Made by a program: the position numbers and the translations under genes. Positions 18,584 through 36,329 of a stretch of 64,000 bases of DNA are shown here, in pieces; positions within the stretch are counted from its first letter, which is position 1, and each line of letters begins with the position of its first letter. The notes under the pieces are model-generated. The model searched no databases and was not told the origin of the DNA. It worked only from the letters and a program-made list of their open reading frames with translations. Where the stretch lies: NCBI GenBank assembly GCA_037043015.1, contig CM073330.1, forward strand, positions 5,109,263-5,173,262. Direction: 5' to 3'. Source of the DNA: Bryum argenteum (lineage: Eukaryota; Streptophyta; Bryopsida; Bryales; Bryaceae).

Positions 18584-21500
18584 TCAAAACTGCTGATCTA
18601 GCTTGTGCAAAGAAGATTCCAGAACTGCAATACTTTGAGGACATTCATAGCGCATGTAGAAGACGGGGCAATCAGAGTTTGTACAAAGAACAGACTGAAA
18701 ATGCCCACCGGAATGGCACCGAGAACATTCCGCATGAGCTCCATCCAGCTTCACCTCCTGCTCAGCCATGTCGTAGAATGTCGTGGTTGCTGCTTTCTGC
18801 GCATGGCCTGCCAGGATACAGTCTTCACATAAAGCCCCTTGCCCGTTCTCTAACGGTTTCCTGCACAAAATAACACCACACTAAGTCCTAAATCACGACT
18901 ATGATAAGAAGTGGATGTCTGTTTTTGAATGAATCCCTCTAACCTGCAAGTGAGGCAGTGTGCCTTGGGCCGAAAAAAGTTGCTCACTAAACCCTGTGTC
19001 CGGTTCGGTGCTCCCATGTATGCCGATGGAGGAGCGATAGTGTGGCTACCAGTGAATAATTCTCTCAATGTTGAAACATCCGTAACAAACTCCAGTATCT
19101 GTTTCATTCAACAAAAGCCCGATCACATCTATATGCGAGAAACGACCTTCAATGAAAAGTGAAGCCTACTTCAAATGTTAAAAGGGAAGTTCGAGTGAGA
19201 GAAGAGACGAGGTGGCACGAACTGATTCAAGAGGCTTTCGTAGCTTGTTTTCCAAATACACGTGTGTGTTCACTGGAACGCCTCCGAGAAGAGCCTCGAT
19301 TGGATCTTCCGCCATGTCATCCTGCTAGCAAGAGTGAGGTCGTGCAGTCTTTATTGTTGCAATCACAAAATAAGACACGAAAAATGACATCTATCAAGTC
19401 TTGAGTACAGGAGGGGTCGTTAATAAGTTTGGTTGTATTCAATTGGATGCGCGAACTGGGTGAGGGTCGGTCGAGTTACCTGAAGCTTGTTTGAATTGGC
19501 CATGAGGATATAAGGAACTCTCTCTCCGATATGAAACTGCCGATCTGGATCCTTGCGTTTCAACCTCACAGAAAGAGCTACATGGGGACCTCGCCCTTCT
19601 TCAGCAGTCGATGCCCCCCCTTGCTTCTGGGAGCCTTTGGCCACTGCAGCCAGCTTTGTAATATCATGATCATCCACACGCCAGAGACCCTGCATTCAAC
19701 ATAGCTAATGAGCTGAATAGGCATAGATTGAAATCAATTGACTAAAAGGTGAGCAAGGTTGATAAAAGGTTATTCCAGGGTAAAGCAGTCAAAAAAGCAC
19801 CCTCTAATGAAACAAGAGTAAATTTCCTTCATGCACGACAACAATGAATGCAATGACCTTACCCCCGTCATTATATACTCATATAGGCTCCACTTGCCTG
19901 ACACCACCAGTCGTATGGAGTTCTTGCAGCTCTCCAAAGCTTGAGATACGTCATTTTCTATGAGAATGTCATAAAGTGCCTGTTTGCAGATTTTTCGAAC
20001 AAATCTGGGTACATCTCTCCTCTCAACTTCAATGCCTTTCACAAATAATGTTCCCTGCCCTTTGCTTGCTTGGCTGCTGGTGTACTGCTTTCCAGCGTAT
20101 CTATTCACCTGCTCGGAATTCAACTGTTAACAAAGGTGGAGCAGGCAAACCTTAAAAAAAAAACAAGAAGAAATACACCTTGAATAAAAGGTCTAAGAGT
20201 GTAGAAATCTGACCTGAAGAAGGAGAAAAGGGCAAAGAACCTGCAAAAATCAACCTGTTCAGAAGCTAACCAGAAGCCAATTCCAGTAGGACCAGACCAA
20301 ATATGAGTGTTGTGAGTATATTTAAATTACCCTTTCAAACTTGAGGACAATGGGAGAGGGAAAGGCTTGAGAGACGATCTCCGCGGCTTGTGTGCCCAGT
20401 TTGATAGCGTCGTCAACCGTAGCATCTTTGAAGCGAACAAAAACACTGTCGGTCTGCGCATAAATGACCTGAGCCGTTTCAGAGATACTGCCTACAAGCT
20501 CACAAGCCTGCTTACATGTAGCCGCCCCCCAGCTGCAAAATTTGAGTACAAGTAAGACATTGAATAGAAGCAGTCAAAGAAGCCCCCAGACTTTGGACAC
20601 GCTGAGGAATTCACACCCTATGTCATAGAGGGACTTCCAGAAAGTGGTTCAAACCTGCACTCTTCCCTCAATACCACAACTCCTATATCTTAATAAGGTG
20701 GTGTGAGATATCAAAAGATCTCAACTGTCAGTACATTACCTCAAGCAAGTATCGGCTAACGGAAGTGCCTGCTGAGGTGATGCACCCGCACCTGTGAATC
20801 CATATAAAGCATTTGAGCAAAGCTGCATCCACAGATTTCATTTAGTGATCGCTGCTTGTTTGTATCTACTTCAGCCAAATGAGGGCATTTTCTCTAAAAT
20901 TGGTGATCAATGAAATAGATGATTACACCTTCAGCGCCTTCTGCCTCCCATCCAATACTGCATATTCTTCAGGAGTGATATTCTCCATAGCCATACGATC
21001 TCTAGCTTGTTTCCGCGCTGTGATCAAAGCACCTACGAAGAAAGTAAAGTTGTGAAAAGGCGTGCTAATAAACTTACCACTTAGTTACAAAACCTACTGC
21101 TTCATTCGAGTGAAAGTGAAAACCGGCAATCTTCGACGCACAAGAGAGTTGATAATGTCTGAGCTTGTTTCAGTCTATATACCAAAACGAGCTACTAGGG
21201 AATTGTCTCCTCAATATACTTTGGAATGAAGACTTAGATTGGAGAATTGAAGCTCATACCACAGATGCGGGGTAAGACACCTCGCCGTACCGATGCCACT
21301 ACAAATTGGGCACCAGTTGGGCTGAAATCCATCCGCCCACGAAGAAATGAAAAATAAGTAAATGCATCAGTCAATCAAGCATCATATGCGCAGGTGGTTA
21401 GGGGAGTCTCAGATTCTATCTCAAGTTAAGAAAATCTCCAAGCATGTAGTGTATACAGGTAGAAAATCTAGGCACTTGTGCAAACAACCAGATGCAGGGT

Positions 21501-24500
21501 TATCAAGACTAAAACAAAAAACAAGAGCAGACATTGTACATATCTACAAAAGATTCAAGAGAAGGGAATAACAGAATCCAGGGCCTACCTGGTTGTTAAC
21601 ATCTCAGCAGGCATCGCTTTTGCGTCTTCTGGATGTACCAACGTTGTGTAACACCTGACATCAATAAATAAACAGTATTCCTGGTTTATCGTTCAACCCC
21701 AGGTTTAAGGGAACGGCAAAAGAACTTACAGAGGGCCCAAATTTCAAGCAACATAGATAACATCTACAAAAACGAGTTATTCTCAGCTATGAGTCACCAT
21801 TGCATTCAAGTGCTCAAGACTTACAAGTTATGAGCCATGAATAATGATGGGTACAGCGAAGCAAAATCCAAGATTGCGATAGGATCCTGCATGCCAGACT
21901 CGGAGCTCATTAGTAAGAAAGTATACTGTAAGTACTCCAAGATCAATCACTCCACAGAATTCATCTGCTTCAACAACTAGATATGTTGCCAACAGAAAAA
22001 GTCTGTCGTTAGTGTTGTCATTGACAGCGGATCATCTGTATCAGTCAATTACCTGATAGAAGCCAGCAGTGTGATTGTCCTTCGGGTGCAACAGAAAGGG
22101 ACTCTCCGATAGTTGACCTGTGTCATGAAAGCCAGCAGACACAAACTTCTCAATCAACAGTGTCTTTTGATTGTGCAACTTATGCAGGTCGTCGGTTTCA
22201 GTATTAGTAACACCACAACGCTACCATGATAGTGAATTCAAATCAAAATCGTGCTATTCTTTACTTACATAAGGGTTCAGACTCAGGAAATGTTTACCAC
22301 AGTAACACCAAATCTACTGTAGTGAATAACTTGATACTGAAAAATTACTCACCGTTAAGAGTTGTTCCTCCTAGAAGCCAACCTTCTCTACGTGCACTTC
22401 GTAGGAGTAAACTCTGTAACCATGAGCATTGATAACGAAGTCAGGCTTACAAAGCACTAGGACCATGCATCAAGCAGAAGGTTTCTGAAGTGCAAGGTCG
22501 TGATTTGATAAATCGATCCACTTACTTGGACTCGCACCATTTGAGCTTTGTAGAGGACATCAGAAAGCGTCAATCCAGTAACTCTTGCCATCTCCATGGT
22601 CTCTGGAAGTGTTTGCAGCTTCTCCATAAGTTGAAGAGAAACCTGTAAAACATCTTGCGTCAGAAATAAATCACTGCTCACGATCATCTACTGCGTCACA
22701 GCCATGTGGTTTGTGAAGAACATCTATGAAACAAAGGGCTCGGAAGCCAGGAGATTCAGCTTATCAAGATCATGAAGGAAACAAACTGGAGCCAATATAG
22801 GTGATTAAATCCTCACCTCAGCTTCATGGAGTGAATATGCTATGAGTCGAGAAAGACCTCCATGCTTGCCTTGCCAAAGCTCTGACACAGCAGCAGTTGA
22901 AAGCACCTCTTTCGGAGTTCTTAGGAACACCTAACGCAAGACTATTAGCATACTCAGGTATGGAAGGTAAGCGACAAGCAACTGGATGAATAGAGTCTTG
23001 ACGAGTAGGAATGCAATATAAAGGAAGTCTGATTGTCTCTCACATCTCCATCAACCACAGCTCTGTAGCGTTCTGAAGAGGATTCCGTAGCGAAACCATA
23101 AGGGGTACTGACCCGCAAATAGCTTGTAAAAAGGAATATAGAACATGTTTCCATTTTCATTATTGGGCATGGAAACCAGCAAAGCGGACATCAATGATGA
23201 TAAGCAGACCAAAGACATGGACATACCAGAACCGTAAGAGAATGGCAAAAAGGAAGGTCACCTGAGAACATTCCCCTAGAGTGAAGGTGGAGAGGTTGAA
23301 CGACACCAGCACAACTCGAAGCATATCAATCACCAGTCTTCCCTCCACGTAGGCCCGAAAGACTTCCTGATTGGAAGTTGATGTCATACGAGCTTGCTGC
23401 CTTACCCAATGCTTTCCATAAGTCACAACTGATTTCACCTGCACGAAATTCACGGTCCATCATATGGTCAGCACACGCCCATATGATAACGCAATCCATA
23501 ACCTGCTCACTGGGAATGAAGATAGACCATACCTCACTTGTTTGGCCGTTCCGGCGACCAATATCAAAAGCTCCCAGCTTCAGAACCTTAAAACGTTCAG
23601 CTATATATCGCAAGCTCTCTTTCATTTGATAAACACAAACTACATCCGGATCGATCTCCCAGAAGAAGTACTCGCGCCATGCTGTCAGCATTGCTGACTC
23701 GGAGTCAAAATTGCGAACCTCAACTCCTGGTAAAGCTCCTTGGTGAGGACTCTTGCCATAAGTAAACACCACCTGTTTTGTCCTATCTTGAGGACCCCCA
23801 AAGCAAAGAATGTGCGATATCACAAGCACTGGGTCCCTTGATGGAATTGCCGAACCCCCGCCGATTAAACTGGTAAGGCCCTCAATGTCAGCAACATTGG
23901 CCTCCACATCTCCTCCGACTGCCCCACTAGTCTTCCCTTTCGTGCTTGGCTTGACAAGAGGCTCAGCTCTTCCTCGTCCTTTACCTCTACCTCTACCTCT
24001 ACCTCTACTTGTTACTACTTTGACTGGAGAAGTGCTGCTCTCAGGCAACACTCTTCCGCCACCAGAACACTGTACATGCAAGGCAACGATCCGTAATGGG
24101 GCAATAAGATTCCAAGAACCCTCGCCAGGAGTGGAAGGGCCGCTACTGCTTGAACCCCTTGACTTCGGTATACTCACGTGCCTTTTGAGCTCTGTGAAGT
24201 CGGGGAGATCGTCCTCGTCCGGAAGAGATGTATCACTTTGGTCATCCATGTCCAGAATGCTTTCTCTTCCCTGTAGCTTGCCGGATTCTTCTTCATTCGT
24301 ACCAGAGACGCTTGGTGCAGCTGCAGCTGATTCGGTAAACTCCATGTGACTTGTCGCATCCGGGGTCAATCCAATGACATTTTGCCACCGTGCAACAAGC
24401 TCTTTGGAGCACCTTGTCTTTTGCTGATCATGTAAAATTGGCTCAGCCTGCTTGATTTCCACCCAAGAGCCTCCTGCAATAGCTGTATCACAAAAGAAAC

Positions 24501-25971
24501 GCATGCCCAACTGTCCAAACATGTAAAAACAGCTTAGCTCATCTCTAAATCACTGCAATGTTACAGCCATCACTGAAACTACAGGCATCTACATGTACAT
24601 CGAACCTGTTTCCCGAAATAAGCATGCTAGCAAAATATAAAAACAAGGAACTTCTTACGCTACCAAACAAAGAAGATCGCGAGCTCCATGTTGTTAAAAG
24701 AGAGTCCTCGTTGAGGATCGTAAGAATTTCAATCAACGAAGTTCAAGATGCGCGATTGAGTACTAAATACTAACTTTGATTCCCTCTTCATGGGAAGTCC
24801 AATCGTTCCAAACGAGGCCTTCAGATCGCATCTCGTTCTCCTCAGCCAGAACAGTCAGCTCTTTCGCCACTAAACCAATGTCTTTGCCCCTCCAGACTTC
24901 CACCTAGATCAGATAGACAGATGTGAAAACGAGATATACAAGCAGATCACCCTGATGCTTCTCTCTATTAACCCCAGCACTTTTAACATACATTCGGGCG
25001 AGGAGGTCATACCTTTAGAAATAAAAATGGTCCGCCTTGACGGTAATACATGAGCGGTGTCCTGTATTCAACTGTAATTGCGGCTATCTGCAAGACCACA
25101 AACTCTATGTGTATGAAACGATACGAACAAGAATCACTTGAAACACAACTCGCAAACGTCATGCTATATGCAGGTTTTGGAGAATGGGAGCTGATGACAA
25201 AAAGTGAATCCACGTTCAGTAATTTAGCTGCGTCTGGATTGATCAGAAACAGATTTTAACTCATTCATATCTTGGTCCAAGAGTATAAAGAAAACGAATG
25301 ATTCCTCACAGAAGTCAAGATGGCTTACAGATCGATCACCGAAGACCCCACTTTTCTTACGACTGGCCAACACTTTATAATTGAGATGTTCTGTGATGGT
25401 GTCCAAACTGCTCTCGTCCAATGGCACAACTTTCCCATCATGTTTGCACACAGGAGCCGGAAACCAGAAATAGGGAACGAAGTCTGCACCACAAATCAAC
25501 TCAGAATTCCCAACTTGGGATGATCAACTTCGAACAACTCTTCCAAGATTCATACTAGCCTGCGTATATTCGTGTGAAAGTGCTTGAATGAGTGATGCTG
25601 AAAGAGGAAAAGCACTCACCATTTACATGAACTGCAATGCTCACCCCTTCCATATTGAGCCCATAGAGAAGAACCTGTTCAAAAGCAAGCATCGACACTA
25701 AATTGTCCTTGTAGTAACTTCGACTATACCTTTCTCAGGAGCATACTATCAAATTTATGTACTCAACCGGTAATTTTCGGCACAAATTGTTCAATGTACT
25801 TTTGTCTCGTTGTCTAAAAATTCCACATTAATAAAGTTCGTATTATCACTCAGGAAAGTAAAATTTCAGCAACGGGATGTTTCGACGTACAGAAGGCGGA
25901 GTGGCGGGCGCAGAAAGCGGAGCGTCCGTGAAGACGGCGTCCAGCAACATCATACGCACGGGCTCTTCCAT
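18584..25971 (-). CDS. DNA polymerase delta catalytic subunit paralogue, predicted exonuclease-dead with altered polymerase site
   Basis: I followed 24 in-phase exons: 25891-25971, 25620-25674, 25329-25483, 25013-25087, 24775-24903, 23533-24510, 23227-23366, 23044-23107, 22817-22930, 22526-22642, 22353-22413, 22053-22117, 21825-21886, 21589-21654, 21260-21321, 20929-21032, 20740-20822, 20331-20532, 20214-20240, 19863-20108, 19480-19689, 19223-19321, 18944-19098, 18584-18860. They give about 1208 residues. POLD1 homology runs throughout: PYFWFPAP, TPLMYY, GGSWVEI, palm motif A LDFASLYPS (D about 685), motif B ALKLCSNALYG, and C-terminal CLTC/CEDC and CSRC/CTNSDC motifs. Exo I FDIEC reads LHVQC, exo II loses its Asn and Asp, exo III Asp is Glu. 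Motif C DTDS reads QTDS (830-833), and KKRY reads VNRY. Two inserts flank exo I, one acidic, one RG-rich. The boundary of exons 7 and 8 is the least certain. Confidence 0.92.
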
Positions 25972-27181: not shown

Positions 27182-27256
27182 ATAGTAATATTTTAATGAT
27201 TAAATATAGTCATGATCCATGTCAACACATTTCTTTTAATATAGATGACGTTTAAA

Positions 27257-27866
27257 GTGACATGGGCGACGAGTGTGTTACTTTTGAGATATTCATAAAT
27301 CCTACGTGGAATGCCTTGGTGACGCGGAAAGCTTATGTGGAGGATATGGGTGACGAGGACAAGTTGGTGTTCGGTCCTGGGGGGTGTCAATAGTGACGTT
27401 GGCATATTTTTGTTGACGCAAACTTCTCTCAACGTATGTTTACGAAAACGTAATCACATAGCTGACGTGTCAAATGCATTTATGGTAAGGGTGACGTGGC
27501 TATTAGGGTTTGACTTGGTCAATGTTCCTAGAGAGTGTCAATGGTGACGTGCATGTCAAAAGTGACATGGGCGACGTTCAAGTGTGTTACTTTTGACATA
27601 TTCCTAAATCCTATGTGGAATGCCTTGGTGACGTAGAAAGCTTATGTGGAGGATATGGGTGACGAGGACAAGTTGGTGTTTGGTCATGGGGGTGTCAATA
27701 GTGACGTTGGCGTTTTTGTTGACGCAAACTTCTGTCAACATGTGTTTACGGAAACGTAATCACATAGCTGACGTGTCAAGTGCATTTATGGTAAGGGTGA
27801 CGTGGCTGTTAGGGTTTGACTTGGTCAATGACTCTAGAGATTGTCAATAGTTAAGCGGGTGTCAGA
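27257..27866. repeat. Tandem direct repeat, two units of about 305 bases
   Basis: GTGACATGGGCGACG begins both units, at 27257 and 27562. They share GTGGAATGCCTTGGTGACG, GGATATGGGTGACGAGGAC and GCATTTATGGTAAGGGTGAC in order with a few per cent difference. They lie in the TGACG-rich CACTA-like region. Confidence 0.8.
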
Positions 27867-35947: not shown

Positions 35948-36329
35948 AGGGTAAGCCTTTGAAAGGCTTCAAAACCACGTGAAGAAAAAAACCGAGGAAA
36001 AATATCTCTCCAAGATTGATCTTCATATTTAAATAAACCTCGTAATTTTAAAAAAGTAGGTTTTTTTGAAATAGGTCTAGCAAGAAAAAGATTGGGATAG
36101 GCTAATTCCCCCCCAAAGAATCGGACATGAAATTTTTTTTTCATCCGGCTCAAATAGCATTAAATTTTAATTATAATTATACTAAAAATAAAAATTTGAC
36201 CTATATTTGTTATATATGCTTCTTTCAAAAAAATTTATGTTTTCTTTAATAGCGTCACCTACTGTCTCTTGAAGTTTGAAAACCATTCTTGAATTTGGGA
36301 TCCTGCATCAAGTCACGCAAGGTCTTATC
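35948..36329. other. Probable VPS53 3' UTR
   Basis: AT-rich, no coding potential. Lies directly downstream of the VPS53 stop codon. Confidence 0.45.

Follow-up and report, generated by a model that had tools for sequence, protein, structure and literature searches.

The described B-family DNA polymerases of eukaryotes number four (PMC7544198), and plant polymerase reviews list a single POLD1 for Arabidopsis. A window of 64,000 nucleotides from the moss Bryum argenteum (contig CM073330.1 of assembly GCA_037043015.1, positions 5,109,263 to 5,173,262 of the forward strand; "the window" means this whole stretch) carries on its minus strand, at 25971-18584, a gene for a delta/zeta-type B-family polymerase that departs from the described set. 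The gene is intact and belongs to an old subfamily of delta/zeta type in the green lineage, separate from the moss's own POLD1 and REV3; on balance, its sequence and the enzymes it resembles make it somewhat more likely than not an active, PCNA-tethered, proofreading-free polymerase for damage tolerance or repair. The first-pass annotation of this DNA knew of no described plant POLD1 paralogue of this kind, and we likewise found no published description of the family in the open-licence PubMed Central literature; the fullest B-family survey found (PMC7544198) makes no mention, in its main text, of plant, moss, Viridiplantae or paralog, and mentions an alga once, for another group. Databases give some family members the label "DNA polymerase delta catalytic subunit," which may have kept the family hidden.

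The first-pass annotation had reported all three exonuclease motifs as lost, and alignment to the solved polymerase delta (pol delta) and to POLD1 proteins confirms this. Alignment to POLD1 proteins also reveals changes in the polymerase site that the annotation lacked: YGDTDS has become YAQTDS, and KKRYAG has become VNRYAG. The window protein thus matches neither the canonical POLD1 signatures (FDIE, NxxFD and YxxxD in the exonuclease, YGDTDS and KKRYAG in the polymerase) nor the YGDTDS and KKRYVG of REV3. It carries instead all three signatures of a green family: Gln or His at the first Asp of motif C, VN in place of KK, and a motif B of the form NA.YG.

Conservation across that family was counted over 54 aligned rows, with gaps set aside and with related rows that are not independent of one another. 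Motif A keeps its Asp and Tyr in 51 of 51, helix N its Arg in 50 of 50, and motif B its Lys, Asn, Tyr and Gly in 50 of 50 each. The second Asp of motif C is present in all 49 rows, while the first is present in none (Gln in 43, His in 6). At the KKRY position the first Lys is replaced by Val (49) or Ile (1) and the second by Asn (50/50), with Arg kept in 50/50 and Tyr in 49/50. The exonuclease positions behave otherwise: in 42 rows, exonuclease motif I (exo I) retains its Glu once and its Asp 30 times (the window protein carries His there), and the Asp of exo II is kept in 0 of 46 rows and that of exo III in 1 of 49. Exonuclease residues that scatter beside polymerase residues that do not vary indicate an exonuclease site that has drifted and a polymerase site that has become fixed in a different form; the Gln or His at the first motif C Asp is, in this alignment, a fixed alternative and not scatter. 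Roles were assigned to these residues by our own numbering match to the RB69 polymerase, for which the literature describes D411 and D623 as binding metals, D621 as a member of the catalytic triad, K560, N564 and R482 as contacting the triphosphate, and KKRY as stabilizing B-form DNA and touching the primer end. (Further sources cited are PMC6801657, PMC3792054, PMC3564110, PMC4140758 and PMC6794406.)

The C-terminal tail adds a second distinguishing feature. A PIP-type (PCNA-binding) pattern, Q..[ILMV]..[FY][FY], precedes CysA in 30 of 45 family rows, against 0 of 76 POLD1 rows and 2 of 121 REV3 rows, where 45 is the number of family rows with a CysA found by a simple pattern (9 of the 54 had none). 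In one of these 30, P0053, the box lies farther upstream.

A search for relatives of the window protein, in which scoring was limited to candidates with most words in common, passed 2,337 proteins; the best 120 of these divide by their motifs into 45 family members and 75 canonical POLD1. Among the matches listed, the nearest relative is a Physcomitrium patens protein (74% identity); the other named land-plant members come from Diphasiastrum, Adiantum (two species) and Ceratopteris, and the streptophyte-algal members from Klebsormidium, two Closterium and a source labelled Chlat1, which we take to be Chlorokybus. Chlorophyte members are found in Bryopsis, Coccomyxa, Myrmecia, Symbiochloris, Trebouxia, Chlorella, Auxenochlorella, Scenedesmus, Tetradesmus, Monoraphidium, Volvox, Haematococcus and Dunaliella, and a profile search (47 rows listed) adds Micractinium and Cymbomonas among others. 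No named seed-plant member occurs among the matches listed, the first seed-plant row (Vanilla, P0044) being canonical POLD1, and none is named there from Sphagnum, Calypogeia (a liverwort) or Selaginella, each of which has a REV3 in the same database. Since many rows are nameless and scoring was limited in this way, absence from these lineages is likely, though unproved. The first-pass annotation's proofreading-free POLD1 paralogue stands as to exonuclease loss and selection, but what it describes is not a local loss: the family spans green algae and spore-bearing land plants, with a moss, ferns and a clubmoss among the latter. Two records may point to transcription of family members, P0002 (contigs no longer than 3.8 kb, with a frame of 1,179 residues) and P0043 (named in transcript style). 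NCBIfam assigns neither P0003 nor P0013 to a family at its cut-off. P0123, from Cymbomonas tetramitiformis, and the near-identical P0124 show the family polymerase fused behind an endonuclease/exonuclease/phosphatase domain (PF03372), an arrangement that may hint at a repair role. A viral source for the gene was considered and shows no sign in the 80 viral matches kept and examined for motifs: in viral contigs 307 matches were confirmed, the 80 kept from them reach at best 29% identity, and motif C, found in 30 of the 80, has Gln or His in none. An earlier viral scan using one exon gave no match.

Descent was examined with polymerase-domain trees built from 63 aligned rows, of which 2, 13 and 22 (the last for the third tree, to which yeast Rev3 was added) were dropped by hand as partial, long or redundant. 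In all three trees with REV3 the family forms one clade (support 98 to 100) outside the POLD1 clade, and in the third it stands beside REV3 (98/93). The first and second trees separate streptophyte and chlorophyte branches within the family (P0053 falls outside both in the first), a division that speaks for the family having existed already in the ancestor common to green plants. There is close to an even chance that the family began there, as a fast-evolving POLD1 duplicate in the green-plant ancestor that long branches pull toward REV3. Joining the family to the green POLD1 clade is rejected when REV3 is included (p = 0.0036 by the approximately unbiased test, p-AU), but is not rejected when REV3 is left out (p-AU 0.31), so the REV3 affinity may itself be long-branch attraction. 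With REV3 included, a clade of the family with all POLD1 is not rejected (p-AU 0.24), and one of POLD1 with REV3 that omits the family is borderline (p-AU 0.063). The window gene and the moss's own POLD1 have three introns in common by place and phase, a number equalled in 92 of 5000 random draws, and the named members among the matches listed are so far all green; both favor the young duplicate. Against it, the unconstrained tree that leaves REV3 out sets POLD1 apart even so, if weakly (84/33). The REV3-free analysis led us to abandon the claim that the family certainly predates green plants. The word "paralogue" in the first-pass annotation consequently holds in a broad sense only, as the family may descend either from a duplicated green POLD1 or from an older branch beside REV3.

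Two metagenomic proteins, P0126 and P0130, are pol delta-like, with exonuclease sites lost, YGDTDS kept and I[RK]RYAG at the KKRY position; they join the family stem on long branches (97/89 in the second tree) and are possible intermediates outside the named green lineages. A bolder proposal, which we put forward tentatively and think doubtful, would make the family a fifth eukaryotic B-family lineage beside alpha, delta, epsilon and zeta, as old as the split of delta and zeta, lost in seed plants but retained by ferns, lycophytes, mosses and green algae, with P0126 and P0130 as stem relatives; its members would be PCNA-tethered, proofreading-free extenders with Gln or His in the active site at the position that the first motif C Asp fills in the other eukaryotic enzymes compared.

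As to function, the PIP-type box would tether the protein to PCNA. Pol delta and polymerase zeta (pol zeta) have a B-subunit in common, and CysB would probably join the window protein to it. The absence of proofreading and the altered grip on the primer end lead us to propose that it would extend primer ends that are mismatched or carry lesions, or would perform gap-filling repair synthesis, at places where POLD1 would stall and excise, a role that might resemble that of REV3 or of archaeal PolB2 (Dpo2). Dpo2, once predicted to be inactive, is described in PMC8764526 as a robust exonuclease-less polymerase that extends mismatches and lesion ends in vitro, and PMC7544198 describes primer-independent PolBs without the first motif C Asp as highly active. 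Several observations weigh against such an active, tethered enzyme. The RB69 equivalent of the changed Asp, D621, is in the catalytic triad, so that activity may suffer without it; DNA binding could be crippled where both KKRY lysines are gone; of the 15 rows that miss the PIP-type pattern, 11 retain FF or YF without an in-register Gln and 4 show no trace; CysB is damaged in Klebsormidium and Diphasiastrum; and absence from the seed-plant rows would make the role dispensable there.

The first two of these points also feed a different account, rather unlikely in our judgment, in which the protein is a catalytically dead polymerase with a structural or regulatory part to play, as in the C-terminal half of polymerase epsilon (pol epsilon), and binds PCNA and the B-subunit so as to compete with other polymerases or recruit them. 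Replacement of the first motif C Asp and of both KKRY lysines in every family row examined speaks for this account, and inactivated modules with essential roles are known (PolEpsilonC; PMC7544198). A scaffold, however, would have no need of the motif A Asp, the second motif C Asp and the deoxynucleoside triphosphate (dNTP) contacts, which are invariant across 49 to 51 sequences, and enzymes with the same motif C loss are active (PMC7544198 and PMC8764526). Our estimates for the dead and the active polymerase concern function, that for the younger origin concerns descent, and the two kinds do not compete.

The moss genome (258.8 Mb, 25 contigs) was searched with PF00136, which returned five loci, the window gene among them. 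The locus on C7 is a canonical POLD1, rebuilt in 28 exons without its N-terminus (it begins at reference residue 141), with FDIE, NxxFD, YCLKDA and YGDTDS intact; a separate canonical POLD1, which the first-pass annotation had proposed looking for, is thus present, and the window gene is not the sole POLD1. On C4 is a REV3 with 76% identity to Sphagnum REV3 over the query region; it keeps KKRYVG, and the YGDTDR found in its model in place of YGDTDS probably comes from an error in the predicted splicing. The locus on C6 is POLA-like, and POLE was not among the scored candidates of this search. The C2 locus (L010, C2:26747940-26748758, minus strand) was considered as POLE and dropped. It is a broken B-family polymerase with the motif LDFSSLYPS and 8 stops within the match, and by its sequence is probably an endogenous viral relic of giant-virus type.

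Two decayed pieces of the window gene lie elsewhere in the genome: L093 (C6:3819916-3820864), with exons and introns and with 90% and 87% identity over 862 and 360 columns, and L094 (C4:16380941-16381102), a short fragment. With their introns and stops, these sequences are evidence of segmental duplication. Of the 195 codons compared between L093 and the window gene, 156 are identical and 5 gapped, 12 differ silently and 22 differ by replacement (2 of these are stops). When the 22 are polarized by Physcomitrium, the window residue is the matching one at 12, the fragment residue at 0, and 10 are unresolved, partly because P0001, the Physcomitrium protein, ends (p = 0.0005). This supports selection on the window copy, and not on the C6 piece, since the duplication, by a test weaker than a ratio of replacement to silent rates (dN/dS) between intact genes; the 84% identity of the window protein to Physcomitrium over 424 polymerase columns points the same way. 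The first-pass argument for selection on an intact protein, and no pseudogene, is borne out. Decayed partial copies on C6 and C4 notwithstanding, the chance that the window gene is itself a pseudogene, or the species' only and fast-evolving POLD1, is negligible, both readings being ruled out by the open frame with its GT-AG introns, the identity to Physcomitrium, the 12-to-0 changes and the C7 POLD1.

The gene model (Table 1) was first built by hand, in 22 exons, and then by spliced alignment against three relatives (P0001, P0002 and P0003). The final model has 23 coding exons and 22 introns, GT-AG throughout, and encodes 1,199 residues with a single, terminal stop. Strand, coordinates and the single intact frame agree with the first-pass annotation, whose 24 exons and roughly 1208 codons are corrected by this model. 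Over the reach of P0001 its spliced alignment gives identical exons, and it supplies a 27-bp micro-exon new to the hand model. The P0003 and P0002 alignments depart from it in two ways: both break up the long sixth exon within its inserts (the final model keeps it as one open frame), and both differ at the very start; the P0003 alignment also stops one exon short. Pfam, the search for relatives and the alignment to solved pol delta were run on the 1,190-residue model without the micro-exon. PF00136 matches over most of its length (E 2.9e-73, profile positions 2-451 of 453), as does PF14260 over its whole length (1-70 of 70), and all Cys residues are present in a CysA and CysB tail like that of POLD1. 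Homology to POLD1, described earlier as running end to end, holds over most of the protein but fails at the N-terminus, where the alignment begins near residue 119 of human POLD1, and at two inserts, which have low confidence in the predicted structure of a relative. That structure otherwise shows a full pol delta-like fold.

Table 1. Positions of the polymerase gene, its exons and its sequence motifs in the window
Feature	Positions	Strand	Residues	Basis
Whole gene, delta/zeta-type B-family polymerase	18584..25971	minus		spliced alignment; Pfam PF03104, PF00136, PF14260
Exons 1-12 (high to low)	25971-25891, 25674-25620, 25483-25329, 25087-25013, 24903-24775, 24510-23533, 23438-23262, 22930-22817, 22642-22526, 22413-22353, 22117-22053, 21886-21825	minus		
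Exons 13-23 (high to low)	21654-21589, 21321-21260, 21032-20929, 20822-20740, 20532-20331, 20240-20214, 20108-19863, 19689-19480, 19321-19223, 19098-18944, 18860-18584	minus		
27-bp micro-exon, encodes VLCPFLLLQ	20214..20240	minus		spliced alignment to P0001
Exo I position, ALHVQCSG vs SFDIECAG (FDIE to LHVQ)	24061..24084	minus	308-315	alignment
Low-complexity RG-rich stretch, insert after exo I	23968..24006	minus	334-346	6-bp tandem repeat there
Exo II position, VYQMKESLRYI (NxxFD lost, including Asn and Asp)	23602..23634	minus	458-468	alignment
Exo III position, YSLHEAE (Asp to Glu)	22817..22837	minus	582-588	alignment
Motif A, DFASLYPS, intact	21845..21868	minus	676-683	alignment
Fingers helix N, ITARKQAR, conserved Arg	21001..21024	minus	736-743	alignment
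Motif B, LKLCSNALYGF (Ala replaces Ser; Lys, Asn, Tyr and Gly unchanged); intron inside	20796..20934	minus	766-776	alignment
Motif C, YAQTDSVF (Gln for the first Asp; second Asp retained)	20439..20462	minus	819-826	alignment
KKRY position, VNRYAG	20091..20108	minus	872-877	alignment
PIP-type (PCNA-binding) box, QGLVSNFF	18973..18996	minus	1091-1098	pattern
CysA motif, intron inside	18818..18957	minus	1104-1122	Pfam, pattern
CysB motif, four Cys present	18668..18727	minus	1153-1172	pattern

Two further features lie in the same window. About 1.3 kb upstream of the gene start, at 27254-27848, a 306-bp unit occurs in two head-to-tail copies with 91% matches. On the minus strand at 36091-36153 there is an Rfam group II intron match (43.5 bits), followed by an open frame-like stretch, in what is a nuclear window; it is possibly inserted organelle DNA.

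A conserved extra polymerase not found in seed plants, on which most plant DNA-repair work has focused, could help explain damage tolerance and mutation in algae, mosses and ferns, and an active site one Asp short is nature's own test of the metal ligands that B-family polymerases require. In Physcomitrium, which has a family member, gene-targeting knock-outs are readily made (PMC4990234), so the question is directly testable. The same source reports that bleomycin induces Pp3c17_18800, "DNA polymerase B: delta subunit," 5x, POLD4 8x and pol zeta 4x; this gene may be either the family member or POLD1, and it is not used here as evidence.

Three of the known systems that the green family resembles are compared here by description and not by sequence. 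The inactive C-terminal half of pol epsilon likewise has a damaged active site in a polymerase module (PMC7544198), and the green family differs in keeping its dNTP contacts. PolB_SITDG of cyanobacteria and algae has also lost the first motif C Asp, with a hydrophobic residue and a TDG ending in place of the green family's Gln or His and TDS (same source). Archaeal PolB2 (Dpo2) is alike in having no exonuclease activity, an altered, one-Asp motif C and a replicase that coexists with it (PMC7544198 and PMC8764526), and unlike in belonging to an archaeal clade with no known delta-type Cys tail. REV3 has an inactive exonuclease (PMC7544198) and is the tree neighbor whose link to the family may be an artefact, whereas YGDTDS and KKRYVG stand in 8 of the 8 other-species REV3 rows examined, and most full-length plant REV3 rows have about 1,700-2,600 residues, against 1,199 here. 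From POLD1 the window protein differs by the loss of exonuclease motifs, YAQTDS, VNRYAG, the change of NSVYG to NALYG, the PIP-type box before CysA, two inserts and a short N-terminus; with POLD1 it has in common the C-terminal tail of CysA and CysB.

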